64,000 nt of DNA. Source: Alphaproteobacteria bacterium. Its GTDB lineage: Bacteria; Pseudomonadota; Alphaproteobacteria; Rhodobacterales; Rhodobacteraceae. Positions 28,715 to 31,693 of this stretch are shown here, piece by piece. Made by a program: the position numbers and the translations under genes. Positions within the stretch are counted from its first letter, which is position 1, and every line of letters starts with the position of its first letter. The notes under the pieces are model-generated. The model was not told where the DNA came from, ran no database searches, and worked only from the letters and a program-made list of their open reading frames with translations. The stretch spans positions 34,985-98,984 of the forward strand of contig VGDH01000001.1 in the NCBI GenBank assembly GCA_016869835.1. The letters run 5' to 3'.

Positions 28715-29779
28715 ATGTTCAGAAACCTCATCCCGGCGATTTCTGTTCTCTTGTCGTCAACCTCCTTTGCCATTGCCGAAACGCCGTTTGGGATCGAGGC
28801 CATTGCAAGCCTTGATAGGCCCTGGGCCATGGCAGTCTTGCCCCAGGGCGGGTTTCTGGTGACCGAAAAGGCAGGGCGGCTTGTCCATGTGGCCGCCTCG
28901 GGTGCCGTCGAGACGATTGCCGGTGCGCCGGTGGTAACGGATGAGGGGCAGGTCGGCCTTCACGACGTGGCCCTCGCGCCCGATTTCGAAACGTCCGGTC
29001 TGATCTATCTGACTTGGGTCGATGGGGCCGATGGGGGTGCATTGCACCTTGGGCGGGGCAAGCTGGACCTTGCCACACGGCAGCTGGCCGATCTCAGGCC
29101 GATCTGGCGCGCCACCCCCATGGGCGGCGACGGCCATCCCGGTGCGATGATCGCCTTTGGCCCCGATGGCCACCTTTATCTGACCTGCGGTGACCGGCAA
29201 CTGGGTGACCCGGCACAGGTGCTTCAGGATAGCCGCGGCAAGATCCTGCGCCTTGACGTTGACGGCGCGCCCGCAGCCGACAACCCCTTTCCCGATGCGC
29301 CCGAGGTCTGGACCCTTGGCCATCGCAACCCCTATGGCCTGACCTTTGACGATACCGGCAGGCTCTGGTCGCACGAGATGGGACCGCGCGGCGGGGATGA
29401 ACTTAATCTCGTCGTGCAGGGCCAGAACTACGGCTGGCCCGAAGTGTCGGAGGGACGCAAGTATAGCGGTCTGCCCATCCCCGATCACGCAACCCGGCCC
29501 GAGTTTACCCCGCCGGTGATCGCATGGCCGCCCACCGTCGCCCCTTCGGGCCTGATCCTTTATGACGGTGCGGCGTTCCCCGACTGGCAGGGCTCACTTC
29601 TTCTGGGCGGGCTTGCCTCTGAGGCGTTGATCCGCGTCGAAATCGGCCCCGACACTGCACGCGAGGTTGATCGCTGGGAGGTGGGTAACCGTATCCGCGA
29701 CGTGGCGACCGATGCCGACGGCACTGTCTATCTGTTGGAAGATGGCGATGGTGGCCGCCTTCTGCGGCTTACCCCTTAA
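28715..29779 (+). CDS. PQQ-dependent sugar dehydrogenase, exported
   Basis: Soluble aldose/glucose dehydrogenase-like beta-propeller, 354 aa, with a cleavable signal peptide (MFRNLIPAISVLLSSTSFAIA). Family motifs are GLHDVALAPDF (catalytic His), GHRNPYGLTFD, EMGPRGGDELNLV and GQNYGWPEVSEGRKYSG. It should oxidise sugars in the periplasm with PQQ. It ends inside the last bases of the convergent xthA gene (four-base overlap). No PQQ synthesis genes are in the window. Confidence 0.88.
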   Translation: MFRNLIPAISVLLSSTSFAIAETPFGIEAIASLDRPWAMAVLPQGGFLVTEKAGRLVHVAASGAVETIAGAPVVTDEGQVGLHDVALAPDFETSGLIYLTWVDGADGGALHLGRGKLDLATRQLADLRPIWRATPMGGDGHPGAMIAFGPDGHLYLTCGDRQLGDPAQVLQDSRGKILRLDVDGAPAADNPFPDAPEVWTLGHRNPYGLTFDDTGRLWSHEMGPRGGDELNLVVQGQNYGWPEVSEGRKYSGLPIPDHATRPEFTPPVIAWPPTVAPSGLILYDGAAFPDWQGSLLLGGLASEALIRVEIGPDTAREVDRWEVGNRIRDVATDADGTVYLLEDGDGGRLLRLTP

Positions 29780-30564
29780 AGATCAAACGTCGCAAATACC
29801 GGCACGTGGTCTGACGGCTGCTCCCATCCCCGCGCCGCGCGCAAGATGCGGCTGCCATGCGCCGCGCCCGCAATATCCGGCGTCGCCCAGACATGGTCCA
29901 GCCGGCGACCCTTGTCGGCGGCGTTCCAATCGGCGGCGCGGTAGCTCCACCAACTGTAAAGCTTGCCCTGCGGAACATCGGCGCGGGTGACATCGACCCA
30001 CTTCCCGGCCTCTTGCGTGTCAGTCAGGTGCGCCACCTCAATCGGGGTGTGCGACACGATCTTCAACAGCGACTTGTGATCCCAGACATCATCCTCGCGC
30101 GGGGCGATGTTCAGATCACCCACCAGTATCGACTTTTTCGGCATGTCCGCCCGAAACGCATCCCGCATCTCGGTCAGGAAATCGAGCTTCTGGCCGAATT
30201 TCTCGTTCTCCACCCGGTCGGGGATATCGCCCCCGGCAGGAACATAGAAATTGTGGATGGTCACGCCGTTTTCCAAACGCGCCGCCACATGCCGCGCATG
30301 GCCCAAGCTGGCGTAATCCTGACCGCCCGCTTCCTGCAACGGCAGCTTCGACAGGATCGCCACCCCATTATACCCCCTCTGCCCCCGCGCCACCATGTAG
30401 CGATAGCCAAGCGCCTGAAACTGTTCGACCGGGATCTTTTCGACCGGGCTTTTGCATTCCTGCAAGCACAGGACATCGGGCGCTTCCTCGGCCATCAGCT
30501 TGGCCACCAGCCCTTCGCGCAGGCGGACCGAATTGATGTTCCAGGTTGCAAGGGTAAAAGGCAT
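29776..30564 (-). CDS. xthA: Exodeoxyribonuclease III
   Basis: AP endonuclease/3'-5' exonuclease of base-excision repair, 262 aa. Motifs are ATWNINSVRLR, CLQECKSP, YNGVAILS, LVGDLNIAP and a C-terminal LDHVWATPDI...PSDHVPV. The start is the ATG giving MPFTLATWN; the track's 28 extra residues are rejected. The upstream 440 bases contain two candidate small RNAs on the same strand, the nearer ending in a terminator about 45 bases before this start, so xthA must have its own promoter or rely on readthrough. Confidence 0.94.
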   Translation of the reverse strand: MPFTLATWNINSVRLREGLVAKLMAEEAPDVLCLQECKSPVEKIPVEQFQALGYRYMVARGQRGYNGVAILSKLPLQEAGGQDYASLGHARHVAARLENGVTIHNFYVPAGGDIPDRVENEKFGQKLDFLTEMRDAFRADMPKKSILVGDLNIAPREDDVWDHKSLLKIVSHTPIEVAHLTDTQEAGKWVDVTRADVPQGKLYSWWSYRAADWNAADKGRRLDHVWATPDIAGAAHGSRILRAARGWEQPSDHVPVFATFDL

Positions 30565-30608: not shown

Positions 30609-30639
30609 AAAAAGAAAGCCCGGCCAAACGGGGCCGGGC
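30609..30639 (-). terminator. Intrinsic terminator of candidate RNA B
   Basis: Minus strand: an eight-base GC stem GCCCGGCC/GGCCGGGC with a short loop, followed directly by TTTCTTTTT. It lies upstream of xthA on the same strand. Confidence 0.75.
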
Positions 30640-30658
30640 GCAGTCCAACAGGGAGGTG
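30609..30658 (-). ncRNA. Candidate small RNA B, CCUCCCUGUUGGA motif plus terminator
   Basis: Predicted minus-strand transcript of about 50 nt. It begins near a TATTCA -10-like box, and a perfect FNR box is centred about 41 bases upstream of the assumed start. It carries CACCTCCCTGTTGGACT, which is complementary to Shine-Dalgarno sequences. It ends in GCCCGGCC-loop-GGCCGGGC followed by TTTCTTTTT. The same motif-plus-hairpin layout is repeated 220 bases upstream. No ORF fits. Not a family I can name; it resembles CCUCCUCCC-motif RNAs of Rhodobacter. Confidence 0.5.
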
Positions 30659-30692
30659 AGGACTGAATACCACGGAATCCGCGCGCCGCGAA

Positions 30693-30706
30693 TTGATGTA
30701 AATCAA
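30693..30706. promoter_or_regulatory. FNR/FnrL-type box TTGAT-N4-ATCAA
   Basis: TTGATGTAAATCAA, a perfect FNR palindrome, sits between the two candidate small RNAs. Its centre is about 41.5 bases from a plausible minus-strand start point near 30658, the classic class II activator spacing. This suggests oxygen-responsive control of candidate RNA B. Confidence 0.7.
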
Positions 30707-30828
30707 ATGTCCAGAAATCATGGTTTTTGCGCCACAATCCCTGGTTGCGCCCTGACAAGGCCCCTGCCCGCGCCAACCTCCGGTCTTGCCATGTCCGTAC
30801 TGCCGCACGCATGTCGCGGCTTCGGCTC

Positions 30829-30855
30829 AAAAAAACCGGGCGACAAAGCGCCCGG
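30829..30855 (-). terminator. Intrinsic terminator downstream of cenR / candidate RNA A
   Basis: Minus strand: CCGGGCG-CTTTGT-CGCCCGG followed by seven T residues, a strong Rho-independent terminator about 150 bases beyond the cenR stop. Confidence 0.85.
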
Positions 30856-30935
30856 CCAGTTCCAACAGGGAGGGATGCCGTGCCATGACCCCGACACGAC
30901 AAGGGGATAACTGCGGGATCAAGGGAGGGAGGAGT
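30829..30935 (-). ncRNA. Candidate small RNA A with two anti-Shine-Dalgarno motifs
   Basis: Minus-strand region downstream of cenR, about 100 nt. It contains CTCCTCCCTCCC near its 5' side and CATCCCTCCCTGTTGGAA just before a terminator hairpin. Both are C-rich stretches complementary to ribosome-binding sites. CCTCCCTGTTGGA is shared with candidate RNA B. The 5' end is uncertain; it could be a processed cenR 3' UTR or an independent transcript. Confidence 0.45.
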
Positions 30936-31006
30936 TCACCCGCATGAGCCAAAGATAAGCATCGATTCAGGCAACAATAAGTCCCAAACCGTTAACTTTT
31001 CGACAA

Positions 31007-31693
31007 TCACGCCACCAATTTGTAACCACCGCTTTCGGTGACCAGAAGGCGCGCGTTTGACGGGTCTGCCTCGATCTTTTGCCGCAGCCGGTAGATATGG
31101 GTTTCCAGCGTATGGGTGGTGACGCCGGCGTTATACCCCCAGACCTCATGCAGCAGGACATCGCGTGCCACCACGCTCGACTGGGCGCGGTAAAGGTATT
31201 TCAGGATGTTGGTTTCCTTATCAGTCAACCGCACCTTCTTGTCCTTGGCGTCGATCAAAAGCTTTTGCGCCGGCTTGAACGTATAGGGGCCAAGCTGGAG
31301 CACCGCATCTTCAGACTGTTCATGCGTCCGAAGCTGCGCCCGAATGCGCGCCAGAAGCACCGGAAACTTGAAGGGCTTGGTCACATAATCATTGGCCCCG
31401 CTATCAAGGCCCAGAATGGTGTCGCTGTCGCTGTCATGGCCCGTCAGCATCATGATCGGGCACTTCACACCGGCCTTGCGCATGCGCTTGCACAGCTCGC
31501 GCCCGTCGGTATCGGGCAGGCCGACATCCAGCACGACAAGATCGTATATCCCCTGCTTGATCTTCTCCATGCCCTCGGCACCGTTACGCGCCTCGAACAC
31601 GTCGAAATCCTCGGTCATCACCAGCTGTTCAGACAACGCCTCACGCAGGTCGTCGTCGTCGTCCACCAACAGGATCTTGCGCAAGGTCACCAT
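31007..31693 (-). CDS. cenR: OmpR-type response regulator, CenR-like
   Basis: Two-component regulator of 228 aa. The receiver domain has the acidic pocket VDDDDD, the phospho-acceptor in VVLDVGLPD, the T/K positions MLTGHDS and VTKPF. The C-terminal OmpR winged helix includes [17 protein letters not shown] and [23 protein letters not shown]. This pattern closely matches CenR, the essential cell-envelope regulator described in Caulobacter and Rhodobacter. The start is the ATG at 31693, with GGAGG five bases upstream. No kinase gene is adjacent. Assignment to CenR rather than another orphan regulator is by recall. Confidence 0.7.

Follow-up and report, generated by a model that had tools for sequence, protein, structure and literature searches.

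The intergenic region between cenR and xthA probably carries two small-RNA genes of one seed family, the known sRNA SorX and a short paralogue with its own FNR-type promoter, which would place a single seed under two stress signals. We put the probability of this reading as a whole at roughly two in three. SorX is known already; the downstream copy is new, and its link to oxygen is testable. Both elements lie on the minus strand of the window, by which we mean the whole 64-kb stretch of DNA analysed, in the following setting.

31007..31690, minus strand: cenR (ompR-1 / RSP_0847-type OmpR response regulator), the SorX host gene; ORF of an OmpR/MtrA-type response regulator
30861..30873, minus strand: shared seed CCTCCCTGTTGGA, copy 1; exact match, invariant in 32 aligned SorX sequences
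30644..30656, minus strand: shared seed CCTCCCTGTTGGA, copy 2; exact match, ACCTCCCTGTTGGAC invariant in 12 copy-2 sequences
29776..30564, minus strand: xthA (exodeoxyribonuclease III), the downstream neighbour; TIGR00633, 161 bits, cut-off 99

The duplicated layout reported by an earlier sequence-only reading is real, with motif, GC hairpin and T-run occurring twice on this strand between cenR and xthA. The two exact copies of the 13-mer CCTCCCTGTTGGA (30873-30861 and 30656-30644) are spaced 217 nt apart and are its only exact matches in the window; the 3.14-Mb genome holds three, namely SorX, the downstream element and a SorY-type copy. Behind the motifs lie GC-rich hairpins (30857-30834 and 30639-30618), each followed by a T-run, and terminator-like sites numbered 6 in a 2.5-kb stretch against 2.3 in shuffles. 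As the same reading had stated, there is no credible ORF: those listed are overlapping frames, and xthA begins at the ATG at 30564, preceded by AAGGAG. CenR identity across 80 named loci was 82-93%, and RSP_0847 and CenR have been treated together (PMC9275681).

The upstream element is the already known sRNA SorX, because its Rfam score exceeds the cut-off and it lies behind the ompR-type cenR. Its features are listed below together with a possible structure in the leader.

30828..30906, minus strand: SorX small RNA; Rfam RF02784, 56.5 bits, gathering threshold 46.6
30827..30857, minus strand: SorX intrinsic terminator; terminator search and fold
30876..30906, minus strand: SorX 5' domain, predicted H-type pseudoknot; co-switching of the S1 strands
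30912..30944, minus strand: possible stem-loop TGCGGG..CCCGCA in the pre-SorX leader, C-rich loop with CTCCTCCCTCCC (30934-30923); four-congener comparison

SorX was the only Rfam match at the gathering threshold in the searched stretch. The element stands directly 3' of the cenR/RSP_0847-type gene, SorX's own place, and resembles SorX of Rhodobacter sphaeroides (RSs2461) in score, host gene, 5' hairpin, motif and terminator. The arrangement had been described as unrecognised, which holds for the undescribed downstream copy and fails for the upstream one. Hfq binding, RNase E maturation and repression of potA are established for R. sphaeroides SorX (PMC9438474, PMC6238624), which is processed from the cenR 3' UTR and whose mapped pre-SorX 5' end is described as processed (PMC6238624). 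RSs2461 is the product of a co-transcript with RSP_0847 (PMC3320616), and we therefore equate it with SorX.

The sequence-only reading had likened the motif to that of the CcsR RNAs. CcsR RNAs carry their C-rich motif in a hairpin loop. That both elements are of CcsR type is suggested by the C-rich, anti-Shine-Dalgarno nature of the motif and by the genus-specific extra CTCCTCCCTCCC, which that reading had rightly noted (it lies at 30934-30923, minus strand) and which falls in the possible loop before SorX; this stem-loop was seen in the genus only and is absent from the minimum-energy fold, and we give it little weight. CcsR1-4 of R. sphaeroides are likewise stress-related sRNAs of the same lineage with a C-rich motif, but they derive from the ccaF1 3' UTR (PMC8625941) and are another RNA at another locus. 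Here the fold places the motif in an unpaired linker between two hairpins, outside any loop, the host gene is cenR, and only SorX reached the Rfam gathering threshold. The CcsR explanation is highly improbable, and we rejected the relationship.

We propose that the SorX 5' domain is a conserved H-type pseudoknot, because the two strands of its stem S1 switch together across lineages. S1 would pair CCCC (30906-30903) with GGGG (30892-30889), and S2 would pair 30901-30893 with 30884-30876. The hairpin-loop GGGG faces the upstream CCCC in this genome and CGGG faces CCCG in other lineages, the change between CCCC:GGGG and CCCG:CGGG being concerted at all 57 scorable loci. The best CenR tree requires at least five S1 switches, of which two fall on well supported branches. 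A permissive shuffle test allowing G-U pairs gave no separation (73 vs 72.4), and support was taken from the strict co-switch count in its place. The mature 5' end of R. sphaeroides SorX, which depends on RNase E (PMC6238624), sits just before the first pseudoknot strand. Just 3' of cenR, a block CTTATTGTTGCC.GAATC..TATCTT (window positions ~30950-30995, minus strand) is kept in many Rhodobacter/Tabrizicola-type loci; it is a possible promoter of SorX itself.

Selection on the motif, as claimed from the sequence, agrees with its distribution. The exact 13-mer occurs in 280 of 298 family genomes (94%), usually in two copies, against about 5 genomes for the reversed control pattern, although simple counts of this kind are inflated by phylogenetic dependence. 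At least one exact copy lies behind cenR in 54 of 80 named cenR loci, and two or three lie there in 11 of the 80; the motif is conserved where the cenR-xthA order is kept, which is one of the checks that the earlier reading had named for its proposal. Most genomes have one copy behind cenR and one behind a LysR gene. All four congeners retain copy 2 between cenR and xthA, as do G122 (another genus) and other genera; the SorX motif itself has one mismatch in G299. An oppositely oriented MFS transporter gene separates the copies by ~1.4 kb in G179, G299, G122 and several named loci and is absent from the window and G298, and the tight tandem spacing is therefore probably secondary. Five exact copies of the motif occur in one further genome (G275; L071, L080-L082), where a tandem pair lies behind cenR.

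The third copy in the genome lies on contig 44 (L002 1541-1582), flanked by a LysR gene and a sigma-factor-like gene. Its score against the SorX model, 49.8 bits, is over the SorX cut-off; by its place behind the LysR gene we assign it to the SorY type. The Rfam SorY consensus contains the same ACCUCCCUGUUGGACU, and the R. sphaeroides-like genome G051 has two exact motifs at the published SorX and SorY places. From these comparisons, CCTCCCTGTTGGA is the invariant core common to SorX and SorY. SorX (RF02784) and SorY (RF02651) share the seed and cross-match, and the Rfam output gave no common clan. The motif letters had no match in the literature searched; the primary SorX and SorY descriptions, in which the pseudoknot or the motif kinship may stand, were outside its scope.

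The downstream element is, on comparative grounds, an undescribed and very short SorX relative with the same 13-base targeting sequence and a promoter of its own. The predicted features are as follows.

30609..30657, minus strand: downstream small RNA (copy 2), predicted 49 nt with the seed at its start; fold -20.5 kcal/mol, z -2.96
30609..30639, minus strand: copy-2 intrinsic terminator; 8 G-C pairs, then TTTCTTTTT
30664..30672, minus strand: extended -10 element TGGTATTCA, TGnTA conserved; near-invariant columns T70 G71. T73 A74, alignment A1
30693..30706, minus strand: FNR-type box TTGATttacATCAA, perfect, centred at -41.5/-42.5 of the predicted start; pattern search and alignment A1
30718..30739, minus strand: conserved block GATTGTGGCGCAAAAACCATGA, ~62-83 nt upstream of the copy-2 motif; alignment A1

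The predicted fold leaves the seed largely unpaired. As in the SorX/SorY seed group, the ACCUCCCUGUUGGA seed is followed by an intrinsic terminator. Copy 2 resembles SorX in motif, terminator layout and locus, but it is without the 5' hairpin/pseudoknot, scores below the cut-off (32.0 bits; cut-off 46.6) and has a predicted FNR-type promoter starting at the motif. With SorY it shares an identical ACCUCCCUGUUGGACU core before the terminator and an own promoter in place of processing, whereas SorY follows a LysR gene and has a long 5' hairpin, and copy 2, at cenR-xthA, reaches 29.1 bits against a SorY cut-off of 111. No consistent SorX-type 5' hairpin or pseudoknot was found for copy 2 in alignment A1, where the conserved positions fit the extended -10. 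A SorX-like 5' hairpin, clear in G179 only and inconsistent elsewhere, was rejected for this copy.

The low Rfam score and the lost hairpin would also be expected if duplication of SorX had left an unexpressed relic, no more than a terminator and a remnant motif. We regard a relic as quite unlikely: ACCTCCCTGTTGGAC is invariant across 12 diverged copy-2 sequences while the adjoining sequence drifts (alignment A1), and the box and -10 are conserved as well. The earlier claim of two small-RNA genes is supported by the sequence evidence.

The copy-2 promoter looks oxygen-controlled and of the FNR type. The extended -10 (TGnTA) ends 11 nt before the A of ACC in alignment A1, and with A74 taken as -11 the +1 position falls on A85, the A of ACCTCCC. 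Box and extended -10 independently give one start, 30658/30657, and hence a 49-nt RNA. A box centred near -41.5 of the predicted start is a feature of FNR/FnrL-dependent sRNAs, and an FNR-type box, TTGATTTnnnTCAA, is found in four congeners and some other genera (alignment A1). Perfect FNR boxes precede motif copies at cenR-xthA 15 times, compared with 0.025 expected from dinucleotide shuffles, and fall into two classes by distance to the motif, 34-36 and 64-73 nt. When 397 genomes were searched for the box and motif with 20-50 nt permitted between them, all 11 matches lay at cenR-xthA with a spacing of 35-39 nt, and the control gave 0. Only some of the second copies have a good box, which several copy-2 loci lack (L087, L092, L093, L102, G122).

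In roseobacter-type loci the box lies ~30 nt further upstream, and in 7 of 10 inspected loci of the far-box class the expected class II start is the A preceding the first SorX pseudoknot strand. R. sphaeroides has a degenerate box, TTGCGTGAGATCAA, which lies at the stop codon of cenR and 41.5 nt before the start expected from TATAAA, a prediction that differs from the mapped pre-SorX 5' end. The RSs2461 (SorX) promoter was among the sRNA promoters bound in R. sphaeroides FnrL ChIP-seq, the effect of binding being untested there (PMC4263372). At locus L127, three motif copies lie behind cenR at offsets of 49, 763 and 894 from the end of that gene. The third has an FNR box 35 nt upstream and may have acquired the same promoter geometry independently. 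Copy 2 would work like FnrS of E. coli, a short sRNA with an expected FNR-activated promoter serving low oxygen, but no sequence relation between the two was found and copy 2 is not a member.

Because the related regulators FixK, Dnr and CrpK recognise boxes of a similar kind, the activator may be one other than FnrL. The draft assembly to which the window belongs (217 contigs) yielded neither fnrL nor the neighbouring hemN, an absence that may reflect either an assembly gap or loss. Three congeners have fnrL, and the genome itself keeps perfect FNR boxes, one of them upstream of a gene resembling cytochrome c oxidase subunit I (L237).

These promoter elements bear on two further explanations. 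Both elements could lie in one long cenR 3' UTR, with read-through of the SorX terminator yielding copy 2 as a second SorX-like processing product; they are on the same strand in the same order, 217 nt apart, and R. sphaeroides SorX itself is processed from that UTR (PMC6238624). We consider this unlikely but not negligible, since a strong terminator ends SorX, relatives have the oppositely oriented MFS gene between the copies, and copy 2 has its own FNR box and extended -10. Alternatively, the box might serve the divergent MFS gene, with copy 2 constitutive or under another factor, as the position of the box between MFS gene and copy 2 in G179 and G299 would allow. Retention of the box where the MFS gene is missing (window, G298, L090, L103) and its fixed distance to the motif make this unlikely. 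The block GATTGTGGCGCAAAAACCATGA is also kept, whether or not a locus has the MFS gene, and may be a second regulatory site.

The anti-Shine-Dalgarno character ascribed to the motif was right. The seed is predicted to pair with the ribosome-binding site of a polyamine-transporter gene. The best start-codon site for the seed in this genome, CCAACTGGGAG, precedes a polyamine-type substrate-binding gene downstream of a potA-like ABC ATPase gene. Predicted pairing there is -18.3 kcal/mol, and -15.4 to -16.9 in three relatives, compared with -11.3 +/- 2.2 for cenR/xthA sites. Similar sites are kept in the orthologues of G298, G179 and G122 and in one R. sphaeroides homologue. The target search proposed earlier yielded this one site: it was the only one of 26 complementarity sites inspected in the genome to lie at a convincing start codon, and the genome-wide search for seed complements gave no clear excess besides it. 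The site fits because SorX represses potA of the polyamine transporter in R. sphaeroides (PMC9438474), and ribosome-binding sites of polyamine transporters are the likely shared targets.

From these features we infer transcription, FnrL dependence, Hfq dependence and targets in the following mechanism. SorX would derive from the cenR transcript's 3' end. Transcription of copy 2 would be driven by an FNR-type (class II) promoter of its own and run from the seed to its own terminator. Both RNAs would expose ACCUCCCUGUUGGA as an unpaired anti-Shine-Dalgarno seed, which would block translation by covering the ribosome-binding site of their common targets, most likely polyamine ABC-transporter mRNA. 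SorX would serve photo-oxidative stress (RpoHI/II) and the downstream copy low oxygen.

With slightly less than even confidence, we suggest that the short copy belongs with SorX and SorY in a single family whose seed is invariant and whose promoters and 5' ends can be exchanged, able to switch off the same transporter regulon via RpoH (photo-oxidative stress) or FnrL (low oxygen); the copy described here would be a minimal sRNA of 49 nt with the seed as its 5' end. Such a family would tie the separately named SorX and SorY and an undescribed third RNA to one seed, found unchanged in 94% of the sampled family genomes. It would also connect the sRNAs at cenR-xthA with oxygen sensing across many genera, a link that in R. 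sphaeroides has so far been a ChIP peak. One targeting sequence may therefore be used under two different stress signals.
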